Source of the DNA: a virus
Strand: one strand, 5' to 3'
Virus record (IMG/VR): IMGVR_UViG_3300042544_001456
Coordinates: 57,780-121,779 of that record
DNA length: 64,000 nt
Part shown: in pieces, positions 3,314 to 58,126 of the stretch
How positions within the stretch are numbered: the stretch's first letter is position 1
Layout of the letters: every line of letters begins with the position of its first letter
Program-made: the position numbers and the translations under genes
The notes under the pieces: generated by a model
Seen by the model: only the letters and a program-made list of their open reading frames with translations
What the model was told of the DNA's origin: nothing
The model's database searches: none

Positions 3314-3907
3314 GTGAACACAGATAATCTATATGTTTCAAACAAAAAATTTGTTTATTTTGACGATTTGGGAAATTTACTCTCAGTAGGAAATTCTAAC
3401 GACAGCGAAGGATTGTATATTGAGGTAGACGTTGACGAAGTTTATAATTTAATCACAGGTCAGGAACAGTTTCACACTTATCAAGTAATCTTTGATACAA
3501 TAAAAAAGAACTATATATTAAAGCATAGATTTAACAACGAAGAAGTTGTCTTTGATATTAATACACAGGTACATAAAATACCAGAATATAAGAGTAGTTC
3601 TAGGCCAGACTTAACTATAGTACAAGACATTGAAAATAAAAAATGGGTTTTTAAACTAGATGAGTCTATAAAAGAAAACTTAAAAACAAAAAAAGTATCT
3701 TTAGACAGACCCTTAATGTTTAGCATTACTAGATTTAATGATCCGCATCAATTGGAAAGATGCATTATTGTTAATTTAACAGATTTAATTTACAATGACT
3801 ATGAAATTTTATTTGAAAATCAAATAGAACACACTGTTGGATTATTAAGTGTATATACTATTAAACGACTTGAAACATATTATCACGAGGTTATTAATGG
3901 GAAATAA
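3314..3907 (+). CDS. Unknown protein in the glycosyltransferase operon
   Basis: 197 residues starting with GTG at 3314, preceded by AGGAAT. It is acidic and beta-rich, starting with NTDNLYVSNKKFVYFDD, without Cys clusters, signal peptide or membrane segment. I do not recognise a domain. The C-terminus overlaps the start of the next glycosyltransferase-like gene by 11 bases. Position between three glycosyltransferase-like genes suggests an accessory or acceptor-binding role, but this is context only. Confidence 0.65.
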   Translation: MNTDNLYVSNKKFVYFDDLGNLLSVGNSNDSEGLYIEVDVDEVYNLITGQEQFHTYQVIFDTIKKNYILKHRFNNEEVVFDINTQVHKIPEYKSSSRPDLTIVQDIENKKWVFKLDESIKENLKTKKVSLDRPLMFSITRFNDPHQLERCIIVNLTDLIYNDYEILFENQIEHTVGLLSVYTIKRLETYYHEVINGK

Positions 3908-4829
3908 ATTTAGAGTTCTTGATTACGACATTATATACTTAAGTTATGATGAACCTAATGCAGAAAAAAATTATGCAGACTTGTGCAAAAAAATTCCATG
4001 GGCAAAACGTGTTCACGGAGTCAAAGGCTCAGATGCAGCACATAAGGCATGTGCTAAACTCTCTGAAACGGATAGATTTATCACCGTTGACGGCGACAAC
4101 ACTATTAAATCGGAGTTTTTAACAAAGGAGTTTGACTTTGATGAAAATAAAGATTTAGAAAAGTGCGTTATTAGTTGGACTGCTCGAAATACTATTAATG
4201 GTCTTATGTACGGAAACGGCGGCCTTAAATGCTGGCCAAAAGAATACGTTCTTAACATGAAAACTCATGAAAATGCAGACCCAAACAACCCTCACGCACA
4301 AGTAGATTTTTGTTGGGATGTAGAATACATTCAAATGAATAGCTGTTACAGTGAAATTTTTAATAACGCAACTCCACAACAAGCATGGCGTGCAGGTTTT
4401 CGCGAAGGCGTTAAAATGTCGCTCGACCGCGGCATTAAGCCATCGATAGAAGATTTTAAAAAGAACCATTGGAAAAATTTACACAGACTTTATATTTGGT
4501 TAATGATAGGTGCTGATGTAGAAAACGGTATGTGGGCTATTTACGGTGCTCGAGAAGGATTACATAAGACAATGTTATCCGATTGGGATTATGTAAATGT
4601 TAGAGACTTTGACTGGCTTAATGATTACTGGAACAATACTGTTACTAAAAATGTCAATGAAGAAAACATTATCCGTAAATGCGAGGACTTAGCTGATGCA
4701 CTTATTCCGGTGTTGGATTTACCTATTGCGGCTTATCCACTAGAAGCAGAACAAAGTAAGTTTTTTAAAACAGTATATCAAAATCCTGCAAGGACATTCG
4801 ATCAACAATTTATAGATAGAGAACAATGA
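3897..4829 (+). CDS. GT-A-like protein, VDGD type (single-domain)
   Basis: The start at 3897 is chosen because CACGAGG lies 8 bases upstream; an in-frame ATG at 3849 is deep inside the previous gene. 310 residues: DIIYLSYDEPNAEKNY (11-26), AKRVHGVKG (36-44), then FITVDGDNTI (61-70), whose DGD at 65-67 is a DXD-type motif. Later NGLMYGNGGLKCWP precedes a helical C-terminal half. The same core (YDEPNA / RVHGVKG / VDGD / YGxGGxKxxP) forms the C-terminal domain of the 857-residue repeat protein at 21764. It is followed with 4-base overlap by a twitch radical SAM gene and then an SGNH gene; the same trio recurs at 19.3-24.3 kb. Glycosyl or nucleotidyl transfer is likely, but the substrate is unknown. 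Confidence 0.68.
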   Translation: MGNKFRVLDYDIIYLSYDEPNAEKNYADLCKKIPWAKRVHGVKGSDAAHKACAKLSETDRFITVDGDNTIKSEFLTKEFDFDENKDLEKCVISWTARNTINGLMYGNGGLKCWPKEYVLNMKTHENADPNNPHAQVDFCWDVEYIQMNSCYSEIFNNATPQQAWRAGFREGVKMSLDRGIKPSIEDFKKNHWKNLHRLYIWLMIGADVENGMWAIYGAREGLHKTMLSDWDYVNVRDFDWLNDYWNNTVTKNVNEENIIRKCEDLADALIPVLDLPIAAYPLEAEQSKFFKTVYQNPARTFDQQFIDREQ

Positions 4830-6202: not shown

Positions 6203-7034
6203 CCTATATACGTTTGGATGCAGTTTTGCTCAATATTCGTGGCCGATGTGGCCAGACATTGTGGCACAAAGTTACAATGTGACAAAAAATTATGGAAATC
6301 CAGGATGTGGAAATTTTTATATATTTCACAAAGCAACCAACGTATTACTCAGTAATAAAGTAAAAAATACTGATACGGTAATAATACAGTGGACAGAACC
6401 AAACAGAACTGATTACATCAATGAAAATGGAGATTGGGTGTGTTTAGGAAGTTTAACATCTGAACAGTTAACAAAAGCTAAATTAGATTTTTTAATTTCA
6501 GATAAAACTTCAATAATAAAAACACTAACGTATATGGTTAATTTAATAAATTTATTAGAAAATACAGGTTGTAAATGGTATTTTATGTTTATGTCTCCTG
6601 ATAGTATGGTTTATTCTAACGAAATTTCAAAATTGTTTATAGATACAACTCTTTCTTATTTTTATAATTCGTTAATTAAAAAGCTCTCATTATATAAAAA
6701 TCATTTTATTGATAGTAAAACAATGACGGTTTTTTTTCGTAGTAAAAAAATGCCAATAAAAAATTGTTACTATGTAGACAATGATAAAAAAATGCAACAC
6801 TATCACGACGATCACCCATTAACAAATTACACACTAATGTATATTAAAGAAATAGTATCTTTAAAAATATTAGATTTAAATATTGTAAAAATGGAAGAAT
6901 ATGTCGACGAAGTAATGACAAATTTTGACTTTCAAACACAGATTAATTTAATTATGTTAGAAAAAAGACTTTCAACAAATCAAAAATTATTAAATTTTAA
7001 AAAAGCACTTGACTGTAGGAATGACTATGAATAA
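6192..7034 (+). CDS. SGNH-hydrolase-like protein
   Basis: 280 residues. LYTFGCSFAQYSWP (5-18) fits block I of SGNH/GDSL-type hydrolases, with Ser in FGCSF as candidate nucleophile. NYGNPGCGN (32-41 region) fits the block II Gly, IIQWTEPNR the block III region, and HDDHPLTNYTLMYI near residue 205-218 the terminal Asp-x-His block. The family removes or transfers acyl groups on sugars and lipids. There is no signal peptide, so it would act in the cytoplasm. Its relative at 19346 also adjoins a twitch radical SAM gene. Extremely Lys/Asn/Ile-rich codon use matches the phage. An acetyl-esterase or acyltransferase role is inferred. Confidence 0.6.
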   Translation: MQGNLYTFGCSFAQYSWPMWPDIVAQSYNVTKNYGNPGCGNFYIFHKATNVLLSNKVKNTDTVIIQWTEPNRTDYINENGDWVCLGSLTSEQLTKAKLDFLISDKTSIIKTLTYMVNLINLLENTGCKWYFMFMSPDSMVYSNEISKLFIDTTLSYFYNSLIKKLSLYKNHFIDSKTMTVFFRSKKMPIKNCYYVDNDKKMQHYHDDHPLTNYTLMYIKEIVSLKILDLNIVKMEEYVDEVMTNFDFQTQINLIMLEKRLSTNQKLLNFKKALDCRNDYE

Positions 7035-8325
7035 AGAACTGGTTTTTGTATATGACTGGATAGGACCAGAAGGTCCGTTGAATAACTACAAGGTACCGGA
7101 CCTGTATGATTTAATAAAACGATTGCCGTATTTAAGATGGGACAGCAATTCTGTAACAGATGAGCAAGATCCGATTTCGATGTTAATAAAAGATTATGTT
7201 AAATGTAGATTTGTTCCTTCGTACGACGTTGAAAGTCTTGGAGACACTCCATTTATGTATGAAATATTACTTTCTCCTAGAAAGTTTTTTACAGAAATTA
7301 CATTAAACAGTCACTTGGGTGTTTTTCAAACAACTCCTGTAAGCCAAACTGTTTTAGATGCTGTAAGAAATAGGAATGGTTTTATTTTACTTTCTAACAA
7401 ATATGAAAGCTTTGTTGATAATGCAACTTTTAAAAGTATACATGATTATTTTAAAGAAAATCAAATACCTTTGAATAAAGTAATATACTTAAATAATTGT
7501 GCAAATTCACAAGAAATTTATGAAAAATATTGCAATAAATATTGTATCGAAGAAAGAATAAACTGTGAATATGCAGGATTATATGTCTTGCAGCAACGTG
7601 TGGTATGCAAAGATCCTGTATTCTCAAAGAGAACAGATGCAAATGTTAAAAAAGAAAAATTATTTCTAAATTTCAATAGACGTCACAGATTGCATAGATA
7701 CATTTTATTATTAAAGTTTTTTGAGCATGATTTGCTAAAACGTACACATATGAGTTTTTCAAGAGATGTTCCAGTGGAACATTGGATTCACGACGCACAA
7801 CGGGCAGTAGCAGAATACGATATAAGATTAAAGATTGACGAGTTATACCAAGTGTACGATTCGTTGCCCTATGTTTTAGATACTCACGACTTTTCAAGAT
7901 TTCCTATGGAAGATCGACTTGAGGACACAATAAGTTGGTATGATAAAACTTATATAAGTATAGTTTCTGAAACTAACTTTGAGAATAACATCATACATAT
8001 GACTGAAAAAACTATTAAACCTATAATTTTTAAACAACCTTTTATTATTGTTGGTCCAGCAAAAACTTTAGAATCTTTAAGAAAATTAGGATTTCAAACG
8101 TTTTCGGATTTCTGGGATGAAGGCTACGATAATGAATCAGACCCTAAAAAAAGAATGAAAAAGATAATTTCGCTCTGTAGAACTATTTCAAAATGGAGTC
8201 CTATGGAATTACACACATTTTATGCAAGAACGAAAGAAATAAGAGAATATAATTTCAAAAATCTTGCAAATTTAAAACCTATTGAATTAAATAACTTTGT
8301 AGAAAAGTACGGTGCAAATATATGA
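7027..8325 (+). CDS. Putative glycosyltransferase, HR / EKTxKPI family
   Basis: The start at ATG 7027 is preferred: TAGGA at 7016-7020 has proper spacing; TTG 7009 and ATG 7021 are alternatives. 432 residues. Signature parts are LFLNFNRRHRLHRYILLLKF in the middle and, near the C-terminus, MTEKTIKPIIFKQPFIIVG followed by LRKLGFQTFSDFWDEGYD. The EKTxKPI...PF pattern recalls the nucleotide-binding motif of fucosyltransferase-like (GT10) enzymes, but the similarity is only by eye. Four other genes or gene halves in the window share both signatures (9284, both halves of 12458, 15690). The next gene, a GDP-sugar-epimerase-like enzyme, overlaps by 4 bases (ATGA), supporting a sugar-transfer role. 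Confidence 0.6.
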   Translation: MNKELVFVYDWIGPEGPLNNYKVPDLYDLIKRLPYLRWDSNSVTDEQDPISMLIKDYVKCRFVPSYDVESLGDTPFMYEILLSPRKFFTEITLNSHLGVFQTTPVSQTVLDAVRNRNGFILLSNKYESFVDNATFKSIHDYFKENQIPLNKVIYLNNCANSQEIYEKYCNKYCIEERINCEYAGLYVLQQRVVCKDPVFSKRTDANVKKEKLFLNFNRRHRLHRYILLLKFFEHDLLKRTHMSFSRDVPVEHWIHDAQRAVAEYDIRLKIDELYQVYDSLPYVLDTHDFSRFPMEDRLEDTISWYDKTYISIVSETNFENNIIHMTEKTIKPIIFKQPFIIVGPAKTLESLRKLGFQTFSDFWDEGYDNESDPKKRMKKIISLCRTISKWSPMELHTFYARTKEIREYNFKNLANLKPIELNNFVEKYGANI

Positions 8326-9284: not shown

Positions 9285-10546
9285 TGAGATTCTATGTCGA
9301 CGACCTAAATCATAGCAACTTGCATGAATTATCAGATGGACCGCACCCTCTTACGTTTGACAATACTAACGCATTTCATTCTTTTAAGCAAGCAGGTTTT
9401 GAAATTGCAGAAACAAATGAATACGATAATCCGGGTATATATCTTGTTAGTGTAAGATGTTATGCTGAAACTTGGTCTGGAAAAGAACGCTACGGTCCTC
9501 CTAGACATGTATTATATGAAATACCTTTAGACGTTATTCAGGCAGCTAGAAAAGGAAAAGTTCTTATAGTCATTGACAATCAGTCAGAAGGGTTTCCTTT
9601 AATTAGAGAAACAATTAACGGATTAGTTGATGGATTTTTTGAACTTCATGAGGCAATAAAAAATTTACATCTTCCTAGATACAGCGTGATATTAGTAGAC
9701 AATAATTCATGGTTCTCAAGTCAATACGAGCAATGGTGTATTAATAATAGACAGAAACAAAGTGTTGCACATGTATACTTTTTAACAGGATTTTTCTATT
9801 TTCAAGATCGCATTCCAAAGCAACCATTGATACTTGATGCTTTAAAGTCATCGGACTCAAAAGACTTTAATAGTTTAAATAGAACAGCTAGAAATCATAG
9901 AATTGATCATTTGTATTATTTGATTACAAAAAATCTTGCACAACATGGATTAGTAAGCGGTAATTATCGTAATGATCCTAATAGTACTCAAGTACCTCCG
10001 AGTACAGTGTTAAATATAGATGATGATCAATATAAAAATACGTTAACAAAAAACTTACCGTTAATTGTTGACAAAGATTTTACAGTAGAAAATCCAGACT
10101 TTAACAACGAAACAATTTTTAATCATTCTATTTATAAAAATAGTTTATTAAGTTTTGTAACAGAAACAGCATTTCAACAACCGGGAATGTTTATTACTGA
10201 AAAAACATTTAAACCGATTGTTGCCGGTCATCCGTTTATAATTCTAGGACAATACAATATTTTAAAAGAATTAAGAAGTATGGGCTATCAAACAGACTTT
10301 CCTGGGTTAGATCAATCGTATGATGATATTCAAAGTCCAGTTGATAGATTTTATGCAGCACATGAGTCGTTGACCAAGTGGGTAAATACAAGTAGAAAAC
10401 ACAAAGAGTCTTTTATTAGAGAATCATTAAAAATGGTAAAACAAAATCAACTAAATTATATGCAACATGATTATGTATATGAATCTCACAAAAGATTGTT
10501 TAATACTGTAGAAGAAATATTTTCAGGAAAATATAAACAACGATGA
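9284..10546 (+). CDS. Putative glycosyltransferase, EKTxKPI family
   Basis: 420 residues. The C-terminal third carries FVTETAFQQPGMFITEKTFK then PIVAGHPFIILGQYN and a SMGYQTDFPGLDQSYDD segment, matching the signature of the gene at 7027. The mid-protein TARNHRIDHLYYLI corresponds to the N-R-x-x-R-x-H block of the paralogues. The N-terminal half (residues 1-180) is more divergent and may bind the acceptor. No signal peptide or membrane segment. It overlaps the upstream epimerase stop by one base and the downstream radical SAM start by four. Transfer of the epimerase product is plausible but not shown. Confidence 0.6.
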   Translation: MRFYVDDLNHSNLHELSDGPHPLTFDNTNAFHSFKQAGFEIAETNEYDNPGIYLVSVRCYAETWSGKERYGPPRHVLYEIPLDVIQAARKGKVLIVIDNQSEGFPLIRETINGLVDGFFELHEAIKNLHLPRYSVILVDNNSWFSSQYEQWCINNRQKQSVAHVYFLTGFFYFQDRIPKQPLILDALKSSDSKDFNSLNRTARNHRIDHLYYLITKNLAQHGLVSGNYRNDPNSTQVPPSTVLNIDDDQYKNTLTKNLPLIVDKDFTVENPDFNNETIFNHSIYKNSLLSFVTETAFQQPGMFITEKTFKPIVAGHPFIILGQYNILKELRSMGYQTDFPGLDQSYDDIQSPVDRFYAAHESLTKWVNTSRKHKESFIRESLKMVKQNQLNYMQHDYVYESHKRLFNTVEEIFSGKYKQR

Positions 10547-12468
10547 AAAAAGTAAGTTTTGTAAGCCCGAACTTTCAGCAAGGTCCTAAGGAATTTAATG
10601 CATATTATCTTCCATACAGTCCTGCGGTTGTATGGGCATATGCACAACAATTTGAAAGTATAAAAAATAATTATTACTTGGGTGACTTTATTTGGAGAAG
10701 AGACCCTATAGAAGAAGCAGTTGAACAGTTAAAAGATTCTTCTATAGTAGGATTTAGCACTTATATATGGAATAAAAGCTATAATAATGTTTTAGCAAGA
10801 GAACTAAAAAAAATAAATCCTGATATAATGATATTGTTCGGCGGGCCTGAACCGTCAATTGAAAATCCTAATTTTTTTGAAATTTATCCTTATATTGACG
10901 TTTGTTTTAAACAAGAAGGCGAAATATCTTTTAAGAAGTTGTTAGAAGCTAGCAGCAAAGAAGAAATATTAAAAATACCAGGACTCTTAGTTAATGTTGA
11001 TAATAAAACAATTGACACAGGGCCGAGTTTAAGAATAAATGAATTAGACGAAATTCCTAGTCCTTATTTAATTGGGATATTTGACAACTTAATGAAAAAG
11101 TATCCTGAGATAACATGGAACGCAACTTTAGAAACTAATAGAGGCTGTCCGTATGCTTGTACATTCTGTGACTGGGGTAGTTTAACATACAACAAAGTTA
11201 AAAAGTTTGACCTTGAAAGGGTTTACAAGGAGCTCGAATGGATCGGCGAAAATCGATGCGATTTTGTTAGTATAACCGATGCCAATTTTGGAATATTTCC
11301 AGACAGAGATTCGTTAATAGCCGACAAATTAATAGAAGTTCAAAAAACCTATAATAATCCAAAAGCTTATACAATAAGCTGGGCAAAAAATCAAAAAAAA
11401 GAAATAGTTGATATTGTTAAAAAATTAATCTATGATGGCGGTGCTAAGATAGGGTTAAATCTAAGTGTACAAACTATGGATGAAAATGTTCTTGAAATCA
11501 TAAAAAGAAAAAATCTCGATACAAACAAAATTGAAGAAGTTTTTGAACTTTGCGAAGAAAGCAACATTCCTCTGTACACAGAATTAATTCTAGGCCTACC
11601 TGGCGAAACACTAAAATCTTGGAAAGACAACTTTTATAAACTATATAGAGCAGGAAATCACACAGGAATAACAATCTATCAAGCACAGCTTCTTGAAAAT
11701 GCTGAAATGAATCTGGTACAAAGAGAAGAGTACAATTTAAAAGGTAGAATTGTTTACGATTATCTTGTTGGAACATATAATGAAAATGAATTAAAAGAAG
11801 GAGTAGAAGTTGTAATTTCTACTAAAGATTTACCAATAGAAACAATGCTAGATGCTCAAGTTTTTAGTTGGTTTATGAATACCTTTCACATCAACGGTAT
11901 AACTAATTATATTAGCAGATTTCTTTATAAGCATTCAAATGTTTTGTACGAAGATTTTTATGAAAAGCTTTTTGATTATATAAAACAAGATCCTTGGCTT
12001 AATTCTGAAATTAATAGAATTAGAAAACATTATAAAAATTGGTCAGATTACGGTTTAATAAATCATGTTCCTATTCAAGGAATTGAAATACATGGTTGGA
12101 ATTTGATTCACAGTACCATAATTAATATTCATAGCGAAAATAAAAGTCAACATGTATTTGATTTAATAGATAAATTTTTAAAAGAAAATTTCGACTTAGA
12201 TAAAGAACTCTCGGATCAATTAATACAATTGCAAAGAAATTATATTATTGACTATTCTCAAACAACACACTATCCAAAGATTTTAAATTTTGACTTTGAC
12301 TTTATAGGATACATACAATCTAACGAAATTTTAAAAAATAAAGTAAGATACAAATTTGATTTTCCTGAGGATAAAGATATTAGTCTACAAAAGTTTTGTG
12401 AACAAATATTTTTTGCTAGACGGCGAAATTTTGGAAAATCGTGGATAACAAAAGTAAATGATCGATAA
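10543..12468 (+). CDS. B12-binding-type radical SAM protein
   Basis: 641 residues. The N-terminal ~130 residues have the Rossmann-like layout of the cobalamin-binding domain (IVGFSTYIW at 68-76, ILFGGPEPS at 97-105), but the B12-ligand DxHxxG motif is not visible. The radical SAM motif is CPYACTFC with Cys202, Cys206 and Cys209. A TIM-barrel follows, with GLNLSVQTMDENVL and ELILGLPGETL as typical late strands. The C-terminal ~200 residues are extra. This class includes methylthiotransferase-like, anaerobic cyclase-like and C-methylating enzymes; the reaction is not predictable. It lies between two EKTxKPI-family glycosyltransferases with overlaps on both sides. Confidence 0.8.
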   Translation: MKKVSFVSPNFQQGPKEFNAYYLPYSPAVVWAYAQQFESIKNNYYLGDFIWRRDPIEEAVEQLKDSSIVGFSTYIWNKSYNNVLARELKKINPDIMILFGGPEPSIENPNFFEIYPYIDVCFKQEGEISFKKLLEASSKEEILKIPGLLVNVDNKTIDTGPSLRINELDEIPSPYLIGIFDNLMKKYPEITWNATLETNRGCPYACTFCDWGSLTYNKVKKFDLERVYKELEWIGENRCDFVSITDANFGIFPDRDSLIADKLIEVQKTYNNPKAYTISWAKNQKKEIVDIVKKLIYDGGAKIGLNLSVQTMDENVLEIIKRKNLDTNKIEEVFELCEESNIPLYTELILGLPGETLKSWKDNFYKLYRAGNHTGITIYQAQLLENAEMNLVQREEYNLKGRIVYDYLVGTYNENELKEGVEVVISTKDLPIETMLDAQVFSWFMNTFHINGITNYISRFLYKHSNVLYEDFYEKLFDYIKQDPWLNSEINRIRKHYKNWSDYGLINHVPIQGIEIHGWNLIHSTIINIHSENKSQHVFDLIDKFLKENFDLDKELSDQLIQLQRNYIIDYSQTTHYPKILNFDFDFIGYIQSNEILKNKVRYKFDFPEDKDISLQKFCEQIFFARRRNFGKSWITKVNDR

Positions 12469-14521
12469 TACAATTTATGCATGGGAATTTGTCGATGACG
12501 AATTATACAACTATATAAAAATAAAAAATTTAAAACATATAAATTTTTTTTATATGCACGAATATGAATTAAATCTAACAAAAAAAATAGTTGATTATAT
12601 CAATGAAAATTTAATTACAATAACTGTTGTAGTTTGTGTAAAAGACAAAAAATGGCTTTTTTCTAATGTACTTAAGACCGGAATTAATAAGGATTTAATA
12701 AAAAAAGTTATTACATGGCCGACGTTTTGGTTTTTAAAAACTGCTAAAGAACTTGAAAAAAATAATGATCTTTTTAATAATATTGAAAATTACAAATTTA
12801 ATTTTGTAAATCCTTTTTTAACGTTTAATGGTCGTACTCGACTTCATAGAACACAATGGATAGATGAATTAGCAAAAAATAACTATCTTGATAAAGGCAT
12901 AGTATCGTACCAGCAAATTCCTAATAACGAGTTAAAAGAAAATTGGAAATATTATACAGGGGAGATATTACTATCCGGAGACGGGTTTGAAAATCATTTT
13001 TCTAGTTATCATTTTAATAAAACTTTTTTGGAATCTTTTTTGCATATTCCAACAGAAACTACTACTGATACATTTCTTTTGTCTGAAAAAACTGCTAATC
13101 CTATCTTATGTGGATTACCTACATTAACTCTTGGGTCTCAGTACTATCATAAAAATCTTGAAGATCTAGGATTTAAACTATATGACGAAATTTTTGATTA
13201 TTCGTTCGATTCAGAACCCGATGTTGAAAAACGCATACAAAAGTTAATGGTAAATGTAACTAACGTTATTGATCAAAAAAATAACTTGAATGACTTATAT
13301 AATAAAATAAAAGAGAAAATTGATTACAATAAAAGTCTAGCATTGGATATAACAAAATCAGACAACTATGTTCCTAAGATTGTAAAAACATTTGTTAATA
13401 TTAATCTTAAAAAACAAACTCAAGTAAGCGAATATAACAGAGAACTTTTAGAGTTTTTTTCTAAGTTTAAAATTTATAATATTAATATAGATCACTATAA
13501 ACACAAAGTTTACGAGCTCGAAGCAGACTTGTGGCATAACTTTAACTATGACAATTTAATTCAAAGTATTAAAAATACAAAACCTGAATTAGTTACGATC
13601 TATGGAGAAAACGAATGGCACCCTTGGGTTACTAAAGAATTTGTTGACGTAGTAAATTCCTATAATGTTAGTGTTATTTGGATTACAGGTGCACCTGAAT
13701 CCAAATATCTTACAGATCTAGTAAATAGTTTTGGCATTAAAAATTTTAAATTAAAACATTATCCTACATATTGGTTTAATTATACTTTATCAGTATTAAA
13801 ACCTCGTAATATAAAAGAATTAAAAAACAATAAGAATTTTTTGTATCCGTTTGTGTGTTTTAATAATCGTGGGCACTTACATCGATGCTATACAATAGAT
13901 TACATTTCGAAATATAATTTATTTGATAAAGGAATTGTAACTTGGCATAACTTTTTAAAAGAAAATTCTAATTTTGAATTTAAATATTTTGATAATACTG
14001 TTAAAAAAATTGATGACGATTTTGATACAAAACTTGACTCGTTTTTACTTCCGCATCAGTACCACGAAAGTTTATTTGATTTTGTTACAGAATGCTCACA
14101 TGAAACAATAATGATTAGTGAAAAAACTATAACGCCTATTATTTTAGAAAAACCGTTTGTAACACTTTCGTCGATGCATTTTAATAAGTATTTACAAAAG
14201 TTAGGATTTGTTTTGTACGACGAAATAATAGATTATACCTTCGATGATGTAGCTGATATAGATGAGCGTGCTCATTTATATGTAAAAAATATAGAAACAG
14301 TTAGTAAAATAACTAACTTCAGAGAAGTATATGATTTGTTAAAACCAAAAATAGAATTTAATTATCGAAATTTTCTAAAAATAATTAACGATAGAAGTTT
14401 TATACCTAGTGAAATAAAAAACTGTCTCAAAAAAATTCAACCGGCACCACTTACTGATCACGGAAGATTAAACAAGTATTTTTGTATTTTAAACACTAAC
14501 ATAAACGAGGAACAAAAATGA
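12458..14521 (+). CDS. Tandem-fused double glycosyltransferase-like protein
   Basis: 687 residues formed by two related halves. Half 1 has FNGRTRLHRTQWIDEL then LSEKTANPILCGLPTLTLG. Half 2 (from about residue 320) has FNNRGHLHRCYTIDYI then ISEKTITPIILEKPFVTLS. Both also share DKGIV(S/T) and a LGFxLYDEI(F/I)DY block. These are the two signatures of the genes at 7027, 9284 and 15690, so this is an internal duplication or gene fusion. Two active sites in one chain would permit two transfers on one acceptor (inference). The ATG at 12458 overlaps the preceding gene by 11 bases and has a weak ribosome binding site. Confidence 0.65.
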   Translation: MIDNTIYAWEFVDDELYNYIKIKNLKHINFFYMHEYELNLTKKIVDYINENLITITVVVCVKDKKWLFSNVLKTGINKDLIKKVITWPTFWFLKTAKELEKNNDLFNNIENYKFNFVNPFLTFNGRTRLHRTQWIDELAKNNYLDKGIVSYQQIPNNELKENWKYYTGEILLSGDGFENHFSSYHFNKTFLESFLHIPTETTTDTFLLSEKTANPILCGLPTLTLGSQYYHKNLEDLGFKLYDEIFDYSFDSEPDVEKRIQKLMVNVTNVIDQKNNLNDLYNKIKEKIDYNKSLALDITKSDNYVPKIVKTFVNINLKKQTQVSEYNRELLEFFSKFKIYNINIDHYKHKVYELEADLWHNFNYDNLIQSIKNTKPELVTIYGENEWHPWVTKEFVDVVNSYNVSVIWITGAPESKYLTDLVNSFGIKNFKLKHYPTYWFNYTLSVLKPRNIKELKNNKNFLYPFVCFNNRGHLHRCYTIDYISKYNLFDKGIVTWHNFLKENSNFEFKYFDNTVKKIDDDFDTKLDSFLLPHQYHESLFDFVTECSHETIMISEKTITPIILEKPFVTLSSMHFNKYLQKLGFVLYDEIIDYTFDDVADIDERAHLYVKNIETVSKITNFREVYDLLKPKIEFNYRNFLKIINDRSFIPSEIKNCLKKIQPAPLTDHGRLNKYFCILNTNINEEQK

Positions 14522-20233: not shown

Positions 20234-21760
20234 ATGAGTGATTATAACCAATCTGCAGATATAGCCGAAAATCAACTTAAAAAAATAAGTAAAACAATGT
20301 GTTATGCTAAATGGGCACAAGTGTCGATGCACTTAACCAATGGAACAACACATAGCTGCTATCATCCGCCGTTACATAAAATAAGTATTCCTGAAATAGA
20401 AAAAAATCCTAGTGCTCTTCATAATACACAAGAAAAAAAAGCAGAACGATCTTTAATGCTCAAAGGCGAAAGACCGGCAGGATGCTCGTATTGCTGGAAA
20501 ATTGAAGATTCTGGAAATAGAAGTGACAGGATATATCGATCAGGAGAATATTGGGCACAAAATTCTCGCAGTGATATTATAGATTCTCTTGACACTAGTA
20601 ACATAAATCCTAGATATATGGAAGTTAACTTTAATCAAGCATGTAATTTAAAATGCATGTATTGTTCTCCGCATTTAAGCACTGAGTGGGAAGACGAAGT
20701 TAAAAAGTTAGGCGAGTTTAAAATTTTAGATATTAACAATAATGAAGTTGGGCATAACAATTTAGATGCCCTTGCATCTGCAGGGTTAATGCCTTTAAAA
20801 TCAAAACAATCGGAAAATCCTTATATATCTGCTTTTTGGAAATGGTGGCCTGAGTTATATAAAAAATTAGAAGTGTTTAGAATTACAGGCGGTGAGCCTC
20901 TTATGGATGCAAATACTTTTAAAGTTTTAGATTACATATATGAAAATCCTAACACTTGGTTAGAGTTAAGTATCACTAGTAATTTTTCTCCTCCAAAGCC
21001 TGAGTTAATGGACAAGTTTATAGAAAAAATTAAGAAACTCGAGGAAATACAAATATGGGAAGACAAAGAACGCTTTAACCCGGGTGCTAACAATCATTGG
21101 TATGTAAATATGGCACTAAAAAATCTTGCATTATTTGTAAGTGTTGACTCGGTAGGAACCCAAGCGGAGTATATTCGTACAGGTTTAAACTATTCTTATA
21201 TGCAAGAAAACGTTAGTAGATTTTTAAATGAAACTAAGAATACTACAGTTACATTTATTAATACATTTAATGCATTAAGTTTTCCTAAATTTAAGGATTA
21301 CTTACAATATATACTCGATTTAAGAACGGAATTTAGCAAAGACAAGCAGGGCATACAATTCATACCAATATATGATCCGTATTATACTCATCCGGATTAC
21401 GAAATTCATCCCAGACAAAGAATTTGGTTTGACATTCCTATTTTAAGAAATCCTGCATGGCAAAACATGAATGTGCTTCCGTTAGAATTTTCTTCATACC
21501 TTGAAGAAGGAATTGACTTTATGAAAAAAAATTCCGACGTATCTAACTTTGCAGGATTTTACGATTTTGAAATAGCAAAAGCAGAAAGAAATTTAGATAT
21601 TTTTCGAGATAGGTCAAATATTTCACCCAACGAAATGCATATAAATAAAATAAATTTTGTAAAATATGTATTGCAACACGATCAGCGTCGCGGCACAAAC
21701 TTTATTGACACATTTCCGGAATTTGCTAGCATATTTCTAGATTCTCGTTACAATTGGTGA
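20234..21760 (+). CDS. Radical SAM protein with N-terminal twitch-type cysteines
   Basis: 508 residues. Cys23, Cys42 (HSCYHPPLH), Cys84 and Cys87 (CSYC) form the N-terminal auxiliary set; the radical SAM motif is CNLKCMYC with Cys137, Cys141 and Cys144; ITGGEP lies at 217-222. The N-terminal 90 residues align position by position with the protein at 4826, including KxERxxMLxGExPxGCxYCW. The barrel-end segment ALFVSVDSVGTQAEYIRTGL is typical. The pair differ by an insertion between the GGEP motif and the C-terminus. It is preceded by its own strong promoter and followed after 3 bases by the GT-repeat gene. Reaction unknown. Confidence 0.85.
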   Translation: MSDYNQSADIAENQLKKISKTMCYAKWAQVSMHLTNGTTHSCYHPPLHKISIPEIEKNPSALHNTQEKKAERSLMLKGERPAGCSYCWKIEDSGNRSDRIYRSGEYWAQNSRSDIIDSLDTSNINPRYMEVNFNQACNLKCMYCSPHLSTEWEDEVKKLGEFKILDINNNEVGHNNLDALASAGLMPLKSKQSENPYISAFWKWWPELYKKLEVFRITGGEPLMDANTFKVLDYIYENPNTWLELSITSNFSPPKPELMDKFIEKIKKLEEIQIWEDKERFNPGANNHWYVNMALKNLALFVSVDSVGTQAEYIRTGLNYSYMQENVSRFLNETKNTTVTFINTFNALSFPKFKDYLQYILDLRTEFSKDKQGIQFIPIYDPYYTHPDYEIHPRQRIWFDIPILRNPAWQNMNVLPLEFSSYLEEGIDFMKKNSDVSNFAGFYDFEIAKAERNLDIFRDRSNISPNEMHINKINFVKYVLQHDQRRGTNFIDTFPEFASIFLDSRYNW

Positions 21761-21763
21761 TTT

Positions 21764-24337
21764 ATGTATGACATAATTTACATTAAACAAAAGTTTTCAA
21801 ATGAAAACTTTAAAAAAATAAAAGCTCGTTTTCCTATAGCAAAAGTAGCAGTGGATTTTCGACAAGCACAAAACATTTCTATGACTGAAATGTTTTGGGT
21901 AATTTGGGACGACTGTGATGTATTAGAAAGTTTTGATTTTTCTTATACTCCAGATGAATGGAGTAAAGATTACATTCATGTTTTTTTAAACGGAACAGAC
22001 TACGACGGAATTTGTTTAGTTCCAAAAAATTCTAACATATCAAATAAAGAAATCTCTCATAGATTTTTTATTAATAAAAAAGAAGTCGATATAAAAGCTA
22101 GTAGTCCGATACAATACGACAAGTTTTATATTGACACTTACGACGAATATTTGTATGCACTTGAAAATTCTAAAACTGAAATGTTTTGGATGTTGTCAAG
22201 AAATGTAAAAGAAAATAACGAACTAATAATCAATTTTTATATTTCTCATCATAACAGCTATGACAGAAATGAAAATCATGCTTTTATACACCGCGTTGAC
22301 GGAACAGATTACTATAACGGAATATTTCTTTGTAGTAAAAACAGACCTTTAACAAAAAAAGAAATAGAACATAGATTTATTATTAATAGAAAAGAATGGC
22401 CCATTGTAGCAAGTGGTCCTGTGCAATATGACAAATTTAATATAGATACGTATGATGAATATTTGTATGCACTTAAAAATTCTAATACTGATATGTTTTG
22501 GATGTTGTCGAGAAACATTTGTGTTGACGACAGTGTGTTAAACCGTATATATGTTTCTCATGATAATTATGACTCTAAGACAAATCACGCTTTTATACAC
22601 AGAGTTAAAGACCAAGACTTATACAATGGAGTTTTCTTATGTAGTAAGCATTGTGTTTTGACAAAAAAAGAAATAGAACATAGATTTATTATTAATAGAA
22701 AAGAATGGCCCATTGTAGCAAGTGGACCTATACAGTACGAAAAGTTTAATGTTGACACTTATAACGAATACTTGTATGCACTTGAAAATTCTAAAACTGA
22801 AATGTTCTGGGGTACTAGTAATAACATTGACTTTAGTTCTTTCGATTTTGATGTATACTTTACTCATGACAACGAATATGACAGAACAATAAATCACGCT
22901 TTTATACACCGTGTTGATGGCAATGACTTATATAATGGTGTGTTTTTACTATCTAAAAATAAGAAACTTACTCAACGAGAAATAGAACATAGGTTTATTG
23001 TAAATAGAAAAGAATGGCCCATTGTAGCAAGTGGTCCTGTGCAATATGACAGATTTAATATAGATACGTATGATGAATACTTGTATGCACTTGAAAATTC
23101 TAAAACTGAAATGTTTTGGGGTACAAGCAATAATATAAAAATAGATGATAACTTTTTGTTTAACATCTATTTTACTCATGATAACGAATATGACAGAACA
23201 ACAAATCATTCGTTTATACATCGAGTAAATGATAAAGACTATTATAACGGTGTTTTCTTGTTTAGTAAAAATAGAAAAATTTCTGAAAAAGAAATTAATC
23301 ATAAGTTTATACTTAACCGAAAAGAATGGCCTGTTGTAGCAAGTGGTCCTGTACAATACGAAAAGTTTAATGTTGACACTTATGACGAATACTTGTATGC
23401 ACTTGAAAATTCTAAAACTGAAATGTTTTGGATTATTCCTAGTTATGTAAATCCAACAACACGATTTAAATACGACACATATTTTACGCATGATAATACG
23501 TATGACAGAACAATAAATCATGCATATTTAAATGGAAAGTACAATGACGGTATTCTTCTTTGCAGTAAACAGGCAAAATTCAGTAAAAGAGAATTAGATT
23601 ATAGATTTATTGCTCATAAAAAAGAAGTCAACGTGGTTATATCAACACCTGCACTATACGACATTGTTTTTATTAGTTATCAAGAACCCAACGCAGACGA
23701 GTATTACAAATATTTGATAGCCAGATTTCCTAGAGCAAAGCGTGTTCACGGAGTTAAAGGAATTCATCAGGCACATATAGAGGCAGCTAAACTATGTTCA
23801 ACTGATATGTTTTGGATTGTCGACGGCGACGCACTTGTAGAATCTAATTTTAAATTTGATTATCAAGTTCCTCGTTGGGATAAAGAAATGGTGCATGTAT
23901 GGCGATCTGTAAATCCGATTAATGATCTTGTATATGGATACGGCGGCATAAAACTATTTCCTACAGAACTAACTATTAATATGGATACATCAAAGCCTGA
24001 TATGACAACTAGCATTAGCAGCAAGTTTAAAGCAGTGCAAGAAATCTCTAATGTCACAGGATTTAACACAGACCCGTTTAATACTTGGAAAAGTGCTTTT
24101 AGAGAATGCACTAAATTAAGCAGTAAAATTATCGATAGGCAAAAAGATACAGAAACGCAAAACAGATTGCAAACATGGTGTACAACAGGCAAAGATAGAC
24201 CGTTTGGCAAATATGCAATAGATGGTGCTAAATTTGGTGCACTTTTTGGTGCAAGAAATAAAGACAGCATCGAAACTTTGAAAAAAATTAACGACTTTAA
24301 TTGGTTAAAGGAACAGTTTGATGCTAGAAATATTTGA
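21764..24337 (+). CDS. Giant GT-like protein: tandem degenerate GT-core repeats plus an intact C-terminal GT-A-like domain
   Basis: 857 residues. The N-terminal ~115 residues are a divergent unit. Five units of ~103 residues follow (about residues 116-631), each containing DTYDEYLYALENSKTEMFW, HAFIHRVDG, NGVFL and RKEWPIVASGPVQ. The C-terminal ~225 residues have ISYQEPNADEYYKY, KRVHGVKG and TDMFWIVDGDALVES with a DXD-like DGD, then YGYGGIKLFPTE. That domain matches the single-domain protein at 3897. The repeats keep the TEMFW and downstream strands but replace VDGD (for example LSRN, TSNN), so they appear to be catalytically dead copies of the same core. Stretches are nearly identical at DNA level, showing recent duplication. 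Possible roles are multivalent glycan binding, or a ruler for a processive enzyme. Confidence 0.75.
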   Translation: MYDIIYIKQKFSNENFKKIKARFPIAKVAVDFRQAQNISMTEMFWVIWDDCDVLESFDFSYTPDEWSKDYIHVFLNGTDYDGICLVPKNSNISNKEISHRFFINKKEVDIKASSPIQYDKFYIDTYDEYLYALENSKTEMFWMLSRNVKENNELIINFYISHHNSYDRNENHAFIHRVDGTDYYNGIFLCSKNRPLTKKEIEHRFIINRKEWPIVASGPVQYDKFNIDTYDEYLYALKNSNTDMFWMLSRNICVDDSVLNRIYVSHDNYDSKTNHAFIHRVKDQDLYNGVFLCSKHCVLTKKEIEHRFIINRKEWPIVASGPIQYEKFNVDTYNEYLYALENSKTEMFWGTSNNIDFSSFDFDVYFTHDNEYDRTINHAFIHRVDGNDLYNGVFLLSKNKKLTQREIEHRFIVNRKEWPIVASGPVQYDRFNIDTYDEYLYALENSKTEMFWGTSNNIKIDDNFLFNIYFTHDNEYDRTTNHSFIHRVNDKDYYNGVFLFSKNRKISEKEINHKFILNRKEWPVVASGPVQYEKFNVDTYDEYLYALENSKTEMFWIIPSYVNPTTRFKYDTYFTHDNTYDRTINHAYLNGKYNDGILLCSKQAKFSKRELDYRFIAHKKEVNVVISTPALYDIVFISYQEPNADEYYKYLIARFPRAKRVHGVKGIHQAHIEAAKLCSTDMFWIVDGDALVESNFKFDYQVPRWDKEMVHVWRSVNPINDLVYGYGGIKLFPTELTINMDTSKPDMTTSISSKFKAVQEISNVTGFNTDPFNTWKSAFRECTKLSSKIIDRQKDTETQNRLQTWCTTGKDRPFGKYAIDGAKFGALFGARNKDSIETLKKINDFNWLKEQFDARNI
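22108..23654 (+). repeat. Five tandem ~310-bp coding repeats
   Basis: Units start at about 22108, 22421, 22730, 23040 and 23350. The block encoding LYALENSKTEMFW is almost invariant in DNA. Units 2 and 4 share variants such as AATATAGATACGTATGATGA; units 3 and 5 share AAAGTTTAATGTTGACACTT. This alternation indicates duplication of a two-unit block. The repeats are in frame and lie within the gene at 21764. Confidence 0.85.
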
Positions 24338-25166
24338 GATATTAGATAGATTTGAATTACTCTATTCTGATAATAATAAATTATCAGACCTGCGTAGAGC
24401 TTATATTGACCGAGATTTAAACAGTATTTTTCGCATAGTTAATGATCAAAACAAAGAAGATTTAAGAAAACTAATTCTAGAAGACAATGCATGGAAACTT
24501 TGGCCATTATTAGACAATTACGTTGATACTCAATTTGTCTCAGCATTCAAAAACTTTTATGTTAACAATTTAAAGATTGACAACGATTGTTTTAGTAGAG
24601 GTCAATTACAAAGTAAACTATGGTTGGTTAATGAATTAAAAAAACTAGATGTTGAGTTAGGTACAGTTTTTTTATGTGCAGGGTGGTATGGTACACTTGC
24701 AGTAATGTTGTTTGAAAGCGGAATTAAAATTGACAAAATTAGAAGTTTTGATATTGATCCTACCACAGTAGATATTGCAGAAGTTTTTAACAAACCTTGG
24801 TTTACAGATCAGTGGAGATTTAAGTCATTAATACAAAATATACAAGACATTGATTACAGAGAACATACTTGGCAATATTGGAGCAATGCAAATAACAGGA
24901 TGAGTTATCCTATAACTGATATCCCTAATACAATTATTAATACTAGTTGCGAGCATATAGAAAATTTTAAAGATTGGTATGAAAAAATTCCAACAGGAAA
25001 ATTAGTAATTTTACAAGGAAATAATTATTTTGAAGTTGCAGAACATGTTAATTGTTCAACAGATTTAGACGAGTTTGATAAAAAAGCACCTATGACTAAT
25101 ACACTTTTTAAGGGTGAATTAGTTTTACCTAAGTATACAAGATTTATGAAAATTGGAATAAAATAA
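24321..25166 (+). CDS. Class I SAM-dependent methyltransferase-like protein
   Basis: The ATG at 24321 is chosen with AAAGGAAC upstream; it overlaps the previous gene by 17 bases. 281 residues. A Rossmann-type core is visible: LGTVFLCAGWYGTLAVMLF as motif I (loop CAGWYG instead of the usual GxGxG), then IRSFDIDPTTVDIAE as motif II with acidic Asp for the ribose, then NTIINTSCEHIENF as motif IV. The N-terminal ~85 residues form a helical cap. The fold suggests SAM-dependent methylation or a nicotianamine-synthase-like aminopropyl transfer; the unusual loop leaves this open. It is linked to the next gene by TAATG. Confidence 0.6.
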   Translation: MLEIFEILDRFELLYSDNNKLSDLRRAYIDRDLNSIFRIVNDQNKEDLRKLILEDNAWKLWPLLDNYVDTQFVSAFKNFYVNNLKIDNDCFSRGQLQSKLWLVNELKKLDVELGTVFLCAGWYGTLAVMLFESGIKIDKIRSFDIDPTTVDIAEVFNKPWFTDQWRFKSLIQNIQDIDYREHTWQYWSNANNRMSYPITDIPNTIINTSCEHIENFKDWYEKIPTGKLVILQGNNYFEVAEHVNCSTDLDEFDKKAPMTNTLFKGELVLPKYTRFMKIGIK

Positions 25167-25849: not shown

Positions 25850-26073
25850 ATGATTTAACAAAGTTAAGTTTAAGAGATTTACAAAAAGAAAGTGCCCGTG
25901 CGTTAAGCACAATACAAGCAACTAATAATAATATTTTTCAATTTAATAAACAGGCACATCATAATAGTCAAAATTGGTATATAGCTGTAATTAAATGGTA
26001 CATAGAGCAATACGGTGATCTTCCTAGTAAAATAGGTCCAGGAAAGGATGTAGAGTTAATATACGATGTATGA
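25846..26073 (+). CDS. Small unknown protein ahead of a radical SAM gene
   Basis: 75 residues without Cys. Residues 1-30 look helical (SLRDLQKESARALSTIQATN), followed by HNSQNWYIAVIKWYIEQYG and a short PSKIGPGKD tail. It overlaps the sulfotransferase by 4 bases and the radical SAM gene by 8, so translation is coupled to both. It could be a small binding partner such as a peptide-recognition element, but there is no leader/core pattern that would mark a modified-peptide precursor. Function unknown. Confidence 0.65.
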   Translation: MNDLTKLSLRDLQKESARALSTIQATNNNIFQFNKQAHHNSQNWYIAVIKWYIEQYGDLPSKIGPGKDVELIYDV

Positions 26074-27145
26074 ATATAAAGATATAAAAACCATACACTT
26101 AGAAGTAACACAAAACTGTCAAGCTAGTTGCCCTATGTGTGACCGTAATCAAAACGGCGGAGCACTAAATCCTCATATAGATTTAAGTGAACTAACACTC
26201 GATGATTGTAAAAAAATATTCACACCGGAATTTATAGCACAGCTAAACACCATGTATATGTGCGGTAATTTAGGAGATCCAATTGTTGCTCGAGACACAC
26301 TAGAAATATTTCGCTATTTTAGACAAAATAATCCTAAGATGTGGTTAAGCATGAATACAAATGCTGGCGCCCGTGATCCCGAATGGTGGCAAGAACTTGC
26401 AACTATACTTGGAAGAGCAGGTACTGTTATTTTTAGTGTAGACGGACTCGGTGATACAAATCATTTGTATCGTCAAGGTGTTAACTGGAATATAGTCGAA
26501 CGTAGTATGCGAGCATTTATTGCAGCCGGCGGCAGAGCACGTTGGGATTTTTTAATATTTGAACATAACCAACATCAGGTCGAAGACGCAGAAGCGTTGT
26601 CAAAGGAATTAGGCTTTGAAAAGTTTGTTGCTAAAAAAACTGGTAGATTTATTACGCAAGATAGCAAGAAAAAAGAATCACACCAAGCAATTGATCGAAA
26701 AGGTAATCAAACAACCGAACTTAAAAAGCCCGATGACAAATATGTAAACAATGCATTAAAGAAGCAAACATTGTTAGAAATAAAATACGGAAGCATGGAT
26801 GCTTACTATCAACAAACTCCTATCAGATGCAAGGTAAAAGACGAAGGCAGTTTGTTTATTACAGCAGAAGGGATAGCAATGCCTTGTTGTTGGACTGCTG
26901 GTCGAATGTACAAATGGTGGCAAAAAGATCCTAAACAAGAACAAATATGGCAATTTATTAATTTTGCCGGCGGCAAAGATGCAATAAATGCTAAGATACA
27001 TGGTTTAGAACGTGTATTTTCTACAGAAATTTTTGATCTTATAGAAGCGTCGTGGCATGAAAACAGTTACGAAAATGGAAAATTAAAAGTTTGTGCTATG
27101 AAATGTGGTATCGAGTTTGATCCTTTTGCAGAACAGTTTAAATAA
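26066..27145 (+). CDS. Radical SAM protein with SPASM-like C-terminal cysteines (type A)
   Basis: 359 residues. CQASCPMC near the N-terminus gives Cys18, Cys22 and Cys25. The usual GGEP is replaced by CGNLGDPIVA, a variant also seen in the genes at 29216, 34941 and 41051. FSVDGLGDTNHLYRQGVNW and a HNQHQVEDA block are shared with them. The C-terminal region has a Cys (RCKVKD), then MPCCW and CAMKCG, an auxiliary Fe-S cluster arrangement. SPASM-type enzymes often modify peptides or sugars. It is followed after 8 bases by a type B (twitch) radical SAM and a QueC-like gene. Confidence 0.85.
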   Translation: MYEYKDIKTIHLEVTQNCQASCPMCDRNQNGGALNPHIDLSELTLDDCKKIFTPEFIAQLNTMYMCGNLGDPIVARDTLEIFRYFRQNNPKMWLSMNTNAGARDPEWWQELATILGRAGTVIFSVDGLGDTNHLYRQGVNWNIVERSMRAFIAAGGRARWDFLIFEHNQHQVEDAEALSKELGFEKFVAKKTGRFITQDSKKKESHQAIDRKGNQTTELKKPDDKYVNNALKKQTLLEIKYGSMDAYYQQTPIRCKVKDEGSLFITAEGIAMPCCWTAGRMYKWWQKDPKQEQIWQFINFAGGKDAINAKIHGLERVFSTEIFDLIEASWHENSYENGKLKVCAMKCGIEFDPFAEQFK

Positions 27146-27153
27146 GTATTAAC

Positions 27154-28569
27154 ATGTCAGAAAAATACAATCATATTTCGCCTACCTTTTGTGCATTGCC
27201 GTGGCTACACTTATCAAGTAGACCGGATGGAAAAATGCGAACATGTTGCACAAGTAACGCCAGCAGTGTTCAAGATCCAGACAGCAGTAACAAAATCGGT
27301 GGTGGCGAAGTTGGAGTCGTAAAGAACGACTCGGGCGTTCCTGCTAATTTTAATCATACTAGCCTAGAAGAAGCATGGAACAGCGGATATATGCGTAATG
27401 TTCGTAAGATGATGCTTCGTGGCGAAAAGCCTGCTAGTTGTCTAAAGTGTTACAAAGAAGAAGAAGCTGGACATCTTAGTAAAAGAAATTGGGAAACCGA
27501 TTATTGGGCAAGCCGCTTTGACCTACAAGAATTAGTTAATGAAACTGCCGCTGACGGTTCTATACCCCCGAAAATACGGTATATTGACTTGCGTATGGGT
27601 ACAAAGTGTCAGCTTGCTTGTGTAATGTGTAGTCCTCACGATTCGAGCGGCTGGGTAAAAGAATGGAATTCTTTGTACCCTCAAATAACAAATGAAAGAT
27701 TAAAAGGTACTAGTCAGTGGGAAAATAAAGGCAGAGTACACGGTGCTAGCTATAATTGGCATAAAAATAATCCAAAATTCTGGCAAGACTTGTTTGAACA
27801 AATTCCTCATATGTATCAACTATACTTTGCCGGAGGCGAAAGTCTTATTATAGATGAACATTATGATCTATTAGAAGAATGCATTAGACGTGGGTATGCA
27901 AAGAATATAGAGTTACGTTACAATAGCAATGCAGTTGAATGGCGTAGTGATTTATTTGATCTATGGGCAGAGTTTAAACGTGTTAGATTTCATTATAGTA
28001 TAGATGCACACGGAGAACACAATGATTATATTCGATATCCTAGTCAGTGGCAACACCAGGAAGAAGTGTTTTGGAAACTAGACAATACTGCACCTCAAGT
28101 TGAAGTAACAACGGCAACTACTATAATGGCTCTTAATATTGCTTATATACCGGAGTTTGTAAAATGGAAAACTCAACAAGGTTTTAAAAAGATAAATTCT
28201 TGGCCACTAGGAGCCGGCGGCATAAACATGCACTTTGCGTACTGGCCTCCTCAATTAAATGTAAAAGTATTGCCGAAAAATGTTAAAAAACAAATTACAG
28301 ACAAATACGAAAACGATTTTTATCCATGGATAGAAGACAATTGGCAACAGTTTACTGGAGTAAAAGAAAACAACATTTCTAAAGAACAGTTTTTAGAAAA
28401 TCCTTACGGAATTAAAAGATTCAAAGGTATTATAAATTTTATGAACAGTGAAGATTGGTCGGAAAGATTACCAGAAACAAAAGAATACATATCTCTTATT
28501 AACAAACAACGACAATGGGAAGATAAATTTTTAAAAGTTTTTCCTATCTTTACCGAGATTTTACAATGA
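27154..28569 (+). CDS. Radical SAM protein with N-terminal twitch-type cysteines (type B)
   Basis: 471 residues. FCALPWLHL starts the N-terminal auxiliary domain with Cys13, Cys31/32 (RTCCTSN), Cys96 and Cys99 (CLKC). The radical SAM motif CQLACVMC has Cys152, Cys156 and Cys159. The SAM-binding motif is AGGES (226-230), with Ser in place of Pro-adjacent residues. HYSIDAHGEHNDYIRYPSQW is the typical late strand. The C-terminal ~100 residues include ILxKFINFMNSEDWS, shared with the proteins at 30280 and 36014. The stop overlaps the next (QueC-like) start by four bases. Confidence 0.85.
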   Translation: MSEKYNHISPTFCALPWLHLSSRPDGKMRTCCTSNASSVQDPDSSNKIGGGEVGVVKNDSGVPANFNHTSLEEAWNSGYMRNVRKMMLRGEKPASCLKCYKEEEAGHLSKRNWETDYWASRFDLQELVNETAADGSIPPKIRYIDLRMGTKCQLACVMCSPHDSSGWVKEWNSLYPQITNERLKGTSQWENKGRVHGASYNWHKNNPKFWQDLFEQIPHMYQLYFAGGESLIIDEHYDLLEECIRRGYAKNIELRYNSNAVEWRSDLFDLWAEFKRVRFHYSIDAHGEHNDYIRYPSQWQHQEEVFWKLDNTAPQVEVTTATTIMALNIAYIPEFVKWKTQQGFKKINSWPLGAGGINMHFAYWPPQLNVKVLPKNVKKQITDKYENDFYPWIEDNWQQFTGVKENNISKEQFLENPYGIKRFKGIINFMNSEDWSERLPETKEYISLINKQRQWEDKFLKVFPIFTEILQ

Positions 28570-57442: not shown

Positions 57443-58126
57443 CTAAAATTTACCAAAATCGACATCAATTTCCAAATCGTTTTTAATTGTGCCGAGGTCG
57501 ATAGTCATTGGATGAGTTCTATCAATAACACCCATGTCTAATTTTGTCAAGACAGAAAAAAACTTTAAACGAAAATTTCCCGGTATCCTAGTATCTAAAT
57601 TATTATACCACTCTAGATCTCTTTTATAAAATCTTTTTACAGTTTTAATAAGCCTGTTCATTATTGGGATATTATTATACATGTCTTCGACATATCGATT
57701 TAATCGATATTTTTCAACAGAAAATCCTAAGAAAATGTCTATATCTTCTAGTTTTATAAACAAGTTGTTATGATTTAAATCAGGATTTTGAAAATATAAA
57801 ATGCTTTGTAATCCGGTATGTTCGTCGTAGTGCATTTCGTCTTTAAATTTTTCAATCCAGTTGTTAGTTTCTTCTTCGGTCCAATCACGGGGGTGATCTT
57901 CTGTTTTAGAAAGATTTGCTTTAAAAGAATACCACCAACTAACAAATCTGTTCATTGGTTCTCGAACAATCTTAACAATAGTATATTCAGAAAAATTCTT
58001 TATTTGATGATAATCATCTAAAACTTTATAATTGATATGTGGAGCAATATCTGCAAGAAAGTTTGTTCCGCAACGTGCTAATGCACAAATAAGAATTTTT
58101 TCTTCTTCATTATAAATTATGTTCAT
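57443..58126 (-). CDS. Sulfotransferase-like protein
   Basis: 227 residues. ILICALARCGTNFLADIAPH (11-30) is the 5'-phosphosulfate loop and TIVKIVREPMNRFVSWWYSF the 3'-phosphate-binding block with Arg and Ser; KLEDIDIFLGF follows. It matches carbohydrate sulfotransferases (sulfotransferase family 2-type) in layout. It probably transfers sulfate from PAPS to a glycan or protein. It lies among housekeeping genes rather than in the modification island. 17 bases overlap with the gene upstream. Confidence 0.8.
   Translation of the reverse strand: MNIIYNEEEKILICALARCGTNFLADIAPHINYKVLDDYHQIKNFSEYTIVKIVREPMNRFVSWWYSFKANLSKTEDHPRDWTEEETNNWIEKFKDEMHYDEHTGLQSILYFQNPDLNHNNLFIKLEDIDIFLGFSVEKYRLNRYVEDMYNNIPIMNRLIKTVKRFYKRDLEWYNNLDTRIPGNFRLKFFSVLTKLDMGVIDRTHPMTIDLGTIKNDLEIDVDFGKF

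Follow-up and report, generated by a model that had tools for sequence, protein, structure and literature searches.

Organization of the gene

The window, by which we mean the whole 64,000-nucleotide stretch analysed here, corresponds to positions 57,780 to 121,779 of the IMG/VR virus record IMGVR_UViG_3300042544_001456. The same record encodes a gp23-type major head protein (phrog_138, E = 1.1e-103) and a gp20-type portal protein (phrog_213, E = 3.8e-116), and the virus is classed from its genes as a T4-like marine phage. An ORF of 857 amino acids on the plus strand (window 21764-24337) is composed of an N-terminal cap, five units of ~103 aa and one GT-A-type glycosyltransferase (GT) domain, an architecture that is near certain. 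An identical gene was found on two further virus contigs of 138,699 and 330,024 bp (L004 and L005), both of which carry the same capsid family; the genome of this virus may therefore reach 330 kb.

The cap (aa 2-117, 21767-22114), delimited by alignment, is the most complete degenerate GT copy and has WDD in place of the DxD motif. It is followed on the same strand by unit 1 (aa 118-221, 22115-22426, TEMFWMLSRN) and unit 2 (aa 222-324, 22427-22735, TDMFWMLSRN), both placed by repeat search and alignment, by units 3 and 4 (aa 325-427, 22736-23044, and aa 428-531, 23045-23356, both TEMFWGTSNN), placed by repeat search, and by unit 5 (aa 532-630, 23357-23653, TEMFWIIPSY), which in alignment is a distinct and conserved terminal unit. 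The C-terminal GT-A-type domain (aa 631-857, 23654-24334) was defined with a 28-sequence alignment and includes a D-G-D motif at aa 687-689 (23822-23830). Tandem Repeats Finder (scores 1169 and 1220) and an ungapped repeat search, which recovered four ungapped 300-nt copies, gave the array a period of 309-312 nt within one ORF.

The earlier note had placed a tandem array at 22108-23654, which is within a few bases of the five units taken together (22115-23653), whereas a sixth and fuller dead copy, the cap, falls outside that interval. Its reading of the motifs was borne out as well: the units keep T-E/D-M-F-W and the downstream strands, and the C-terminal copy (TDMFWIVDGDA...YGYGGIK) is intact.

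Cap and units as degenerate copies of the GT domain

By profile-profile comparison with hhalign, the unit matched the cap at E = 2.9e-31 and the cap matched standalone, array-free GTs at 3.9e-16. The unit also matched the standalone GTs directly (3.5e-6), in an alignment that keeps TEMFW and the strands after it in register. On this evidence, the N-terminal half of the GT is the source of both cap and units. Aligned with the GT, the units are without its first helix and its second strand and without the HGVKG and GYGG (YGYGG) loops, and they stop ahead of the C-terminal helical part of the GT. None of the 154 internal units tabulated has DxD, its place being mostly taken by S-x-N or P-x-D; both Asp residues of the motif are invariant in the C-terminal domain of 28 aligned sequences (DGD or DAD). 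Thus, the DxD motif and a complete nucleotide-binding half, which mark an active enzyme, are not found together in cap or units, and the window protein has a single module with DxD. The homology chain and the missing DxD uphold the proposal of the earlier note that the units are catalytically dead copies of the protein's own GT core, with cap and units apparently inactive as judged from motif loss. The C-terminal domain is, by motif and fold, an intact GT-A site with predicted activity.

AlphaFold2 modelled the whole protein with a pLDDT of 87.4 and a pTM of 0.48, so that the placement of the domains, including that of the units relative to each other, is uncertain. Unit 2 folded alone gave a pLDDT of 95.9 and a pTM of 0.88. 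When the full model was compared with the PDB using Foldseek, GT-A enzymes came first (E from 3e-5 to 1e-3), with the E. coli K4 chondroitin polymerase K4CP on top at 3e-5; the GT-A fold assignment rests on this full-length search. The 50 matches listed for the single unit were all GT-A enzymes or GT-A-like nucleotidyltransferases, although weak (E of 0.025 and up). An unrelated repeat fold, which had been named as an outcome that would speak against the proposal, thus did not emerge from the structure predictions, the matches of the unit being GT-A-like though weak. The array is predicted to form short helices and strands only.

Family searches were of little help. No GT model of Pfam or NCBIfam matched the C-terminal domain, which received no CAZy family, Pfam, PHROGs and NCBIfam offered no useful family for array or GT, and sequence searches of the PDB returned nothing similar. 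An NCBIfam match to aldose-1-epimerase was discarded as noise (23.6 bits against a cut-off of 251).

Distribution and unit number

Scanning viral contigs with the whole protein gave 152 relatives, of which 80 were kept; the C-terminal domain matched at least 600 stretches, and a scan with a 15-unit array added further arrays, each joined to a GT. Complete viral ORFs contain 0-8, 10 or 15 units, usually together with a cap, and a 9-unit form (L205) was added later. Protein length rises accordingly from ~230 aa, without cap or unit, to ~345, ~450, ~556, ~650 and up to 2013 aa. The architecture occurs in dozens of contigs, and 8-, 10- and 15-unit arrays are found in many of them. Every array-bearing sequence is metagenomic; a collection of isolated-phage genomes contained no match to the whole protein or to the GT domain. 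Two proteins from uncultured Caudovirales, A0A6J5LK21 (804 aa) and A0A6J5L5L5 (1076 aa), are deposited as uncharacterised. Their predicted structures match near full length (E = 7.5e-37 and 3.2e-32) at 13-16% identity in the structural alignment, and they probably represent an array of this type.

Standalone GTs without units are frequent and are present in Bdellovibrionota MAGs and in marine viruses (e.g. L087 and L084); catalysis as such therefore does not require the array. The C-terminal domain is 42-68% identical at eight MAG loci, and neither cap nor units were found in any MAG or cellular locus read. Locus L087 has neighbours that read as bacterial (MoxR-like ATPase, DUF58-like and signal-peptide-peptidase-like), no T4 capsid family was found in its genome, and 18 of the 291 genomes drawn from its phylum have the GT, with no unit in those loci that were read. 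As for L084, a 335-kb contig of a 'Neomarinimicrobiota' MAG (G003), the GT occurs together with a T4-type major head protein, so that this contig probably stems from a phage and was binned with a bacterium.

Some arrays are incomplete or interrupted. At L070, L071, L074, L081 and L082 (4878-7412), the array ends within a seventh copy. No GT domain was found beside arrays of this type in the locus, including by a six-frame check on L070 and L074; such an array may act, or decay, on its own. At L033 (4914-8762), a nine-copy array is cut in two by one in-frame stop between units, which may reflect either a genuine two-gene form or an error in the sequence.

Unit gain and loss, and constraint on the units

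The earlier note had described very high DNA identity between units, with unit 2 resembling unit 4 and unit 3 resembling unit 5, and had concluded that a two-unit block was recently duplicated. This holds in part only. Whole units of the window gene are 62-76% identical, and 89-100% identity in every unit pair is confined to the patch from the helix to TEMFW; the segment directly after FW is only 27-61% identical. The alternation exists in the first ~36 nt (units 2 and 4, 94%; units 3 and 5, 97%) and disappears over whole units, where the closest pairs are units 1 and 2 and units 3 and 4 (76% each). Because the alternation is restricted to this short segment and whole-unit identity is low, a recent block duplication is unsupported as it was put forward. 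The pattern is a mosaic, and mosaic exchange fits it better than one recent block duplication.

The expectation that copy number may vary between strains was supported, in that close relatives differ in unit number, some by exactly one unit. L037 and L075 are one 312-bp unit apart, with flanks 95% identical before and 93% identical after it; no exact internal repeat of L075 exceeds 24 bp, which makes assembly collapse implausible for this pair. L006 and L007 also differ by one 312-bp unit, without any substitution over the 835 codons compared; the longest exact repeat of L007 is 77 bp, and assembly collapse is unlikely to lie behind the difference. L012 and L051 are 297 bp (one unit) apart. 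GT domains at least 85% identical are found behind 5 versus 2, 4 versus 1, 8/7/6 and 15 versus 10 units. A GT-domain tree (FastTree), whose backbone is weak, likewise has close relatives with different unit numbers, and it was consulted for this point alone. Among near relatives of the window protein, cap matches cap, last unit matches last unit and the interior matches many-to-one, a pattern that fails in the most distant comparisons (window versus L010 or L015). From these alignments, the interior of the array is taken to grow and shrink by whole units while cap and terminal unit stay fixed.

Across 182 units, one His, one Gly and one Leu are invariant and one Glu is present in 181, and Asn or Asp is conserved at the third position of the former DxD. 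Nine of eleven close pairs had a unit dN/dS of 0.05-0.13; L031/L039 had 0.35, and the remaining pair, which had no substitutions, gave no defined value. The GT domain gave 0.02-0.16 in the same pairs. In three 15-unit proteins, all positions pair 1:1 in order at 61-100% identity. The stretch that has lost DxD is the least similar part between paralogous units of the 15-unit arrays (0.34) and is kept at orthologous positions (0.72-0.77). The low dN/dS and the ordered unit identity indicate that the units are preserved and that each is kept distinct from the others; a real function of the dead copies is very probable. A decaying pseudogene is ruled out by the purifying selection.

Two explanations that would deprive the array of significance can be weighed against these data. 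That it is an artefact of assembly or a chimera, which the earlier note had named as a refutation, is hardly credible. The purely metagenomic origin of the array-bearing sequences would allow it, as would an odd 207-bp partial-unit deletion between L017 and L037 at ~100% identity, which could itself be an assembly error. However, the longest exact internal repeat is only 65 bp in the window gene, as well as short in L075, the identical gene is present on two other contigs, arrays of 8, 10 and 15 units were found again and again, and the codons are constrained in evolution. It is also highly improbable that the array is a non-adaptive expansion of little function, in which recombination multiplies a harmless domain. 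Frequent gain and loss of units and the occurrence of truncated or split arrays would agree with such an expansion, but it accounts poorly for the low dN/dS of most pairs, for near-invariant residues across so many units, and for 15-unit arrays that hold their 1:1 order in diverged viruses.

The surrounding glycan island

The gene lies in an island that also holds many radical SAM proteins together with sugar-dehydrogenase, aminotransferase and 2OG-oxygenase genes. A comparable variable region lies close to the tail fibres of pelagimyophages; it contains glycosyltransferases and in some cases radical SAM cassettes, and alteration of the host surface has been proposed as its role (PMC7029224). 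Directly upstream of the array gene, on the plus strand, a radical SAM protein of the twitch-domain family NF033640 is encoded (20234-21760, NCBIfam E = 1.7e-92). The downstream gene (24318-25166, plus strand) has no family match and was the commonest neighbour in the survey, being present in 22 of the 38 loci examined, followed by two radical SAM homologues in 21 and 19 of these loci. Neighbours of the array GT also flank unit-free GTs, and no recognisable homologue of the window's neighbours was detected within the flanking sequence examined for the 8- to 15-unit proteins.

A paralogous single GT (39% identity, E = 1.3e-32) is encoded at 3849-4829 on the plus strand as the ORF is listed, with a true start that may be further in. 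In many relatives this paralogue adjoins the GT or is fused to it. GT and paralogue of this type share one ORF in L118, L127, L133, L174, L086 and L089; such fusions suggest that the two work as a pair. A radical SAM protein and the GT are found in one ORF at L091 (4747-6708), and a 654-aa ORF at L185, with L091-like length and GT position, suggests the same fusion.

About 17 ORFs read as radical SAM in ~43 kb of the window (4826-47452), an extraordinary density. Family matches at E <= 1e-3 were obtained for all seven ORFs tested, three of them above the NF033640 cut-off. In the cellular Bdellovibrionia locus L087, radical SAM genes flank a standalone GT pair. Window 27154-28569 and 26066-27145 are 56% and 49% identical to the radical SAM genes at 6761-8203 and 9403-10479 of that locus, and a further pair (window 45282-46400 and L087 10480-11640) was matched by eye only. 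These similarities hint at a pathway common to predatory bacteria and marine phages. Another ORF of the window (12458-14521, 687 aa) has halves that look alike by eye (NGRTRLHR...DKGIV and NNRGHLHR...DKGIV) and no Pfam match; it looks like a second internally duplicated protein of the island, possibly fucosyltransferase-like.

Possible function of the array

We tentatively favour, as a reading that is quite possible though short of probable, that the array is a pseudo-enzyme docking platform holding an extended acceptor for the single C-terminal active site. The C-terminal domain, intact by motif and fold, would carry out a putative sugar transfer, and the array, non-catalytic judging by its lost motifs, would be useful to the virus, as supported by purifying selection. 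Each unit would keep a binding surface somewhat different from that of its neighbours, and together the units would hold either a glycan chain at a surface or a virion glycoprotein with several sites, for instance a tail fibre; a change in unit number would then retune reach or specificity as the target changes. Acceptor binding is proposed because the fold is a sugar-handling one, because each unit has its own specialisation, and because unit number changes in the way expected of target recognition. Against this, the conservation of unit residues could have purely structural reasons and, at a pTM of 0.48, a continuous binding surface is only putative. Possible but doubtful is the more specific idea that inactive core copies with distinct former donor-site regions, in a set order of up to 15 units plus the cap, read an extended glycan or glycoprotein, the units changing with host surfaces.

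Other functions can be envisaged for the units. They might bind partner enzymes from the island, namely radical SAM proteins, the paralogous GT and the downstream protein, into a multi-enzyme assembly, and the conserved neighbours, the fusions that join the GT with its paralogue or with a radical SAM protein in some relatives, and the mutual differences between units, as different docking sites would have, all point that way. Yet unit-free GTs have the same neighbours, which therefore do not require the array, and the 8- to 15-unit proteins have no recognisable homologues of them in the flanking sequence examined, so that we consider such a scaffold rather unlikely. We give slightly less weight still to a molecular ruler or spacer, a stalk in which the number of units determines the length and thereby the reach of the GT or the length of the glycan, with no need for sugar binding. 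Unit number does shift in whole steps between fixed ends, and coiled-coil rulers are a precedent in WbdD-type O-antigen systems, where they set glycan chain length (PMC11231755). But interchangeable spacers need not stay distinct as the units of 15-unit arrays do, no second catalytic site or membrane anchor was identified at the N-terminus, and the low pTM lends no support to rigidity. Unit individuality argues against a ruler of interchangeable copies, not against a spacer. Very unlikely, finally, is a multi-site enzyme whose units retain an unrecognised activity or bind nucleotide sugar without DxD: the strongly conserved polar residues would suit it, as would the Asn or Asp where DxD has its third residue, but the units have lost the first helix, the strand and the HGVKG loop expected to hold the nucleotide, together with the C-terminal helical part.

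The family has a bearing on glycan remodelling by marine T4-like phages, in an island that changes quickly and is believed to be connected with host recognition. With 0-10 and 15 units, and with pairs exactly one unit apart, it is a natural series in which the role of dead enzyme copies becomes directly testable.

Comparison with known systems

Pseudo-enzyme domains are well known, but we know of no characterised enzyme whose own catalytic core is repeated in as many as sixteen degenerate copies. No described enzyme of such a build was found in the open-access literature, which is weak evidence, as subscription papers were mostly outside its scope. K4CP (PDB 2z86) resembles the window protein in having more than one GT-A-type domain per chain. 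However, TM-scores are low (0.12-0.17) and the overall arrangement differs; K4CP has two modules, both taken as active, and no long array, whereas here there is one copy with DxD and the family has up to sixteen degenerate copies. The window protein is thus not built as a tandem bifunctional polymerase of the K4CP type, the paralogue being a separate gene here. Rulers of the WbdD type likewise provide a glycan enzyme with a non-catalytic, length-bearing region, but the analogy is functional only: that ruler is an extended coiled coil, the array is made of degenerate enzyme domains predicted as short helices and strands, and no sequence relation is claimed. The best PDB matches of the isolated unit were the WrtF fucosyltransferase and the PBCV-1 capsid glycosyltransferase (E 0.025-0.09, TMq 0.36-0.54), a weak similarity to enzymes that, unlike the units, are active. 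The standalone GTs of Bdellovibrionota and marine viruses differ, in the MAG and cellular loci read, by their lack of cap and units, but they belong to the same family and often lie beside the same paralogous GT and radical SAM genes.
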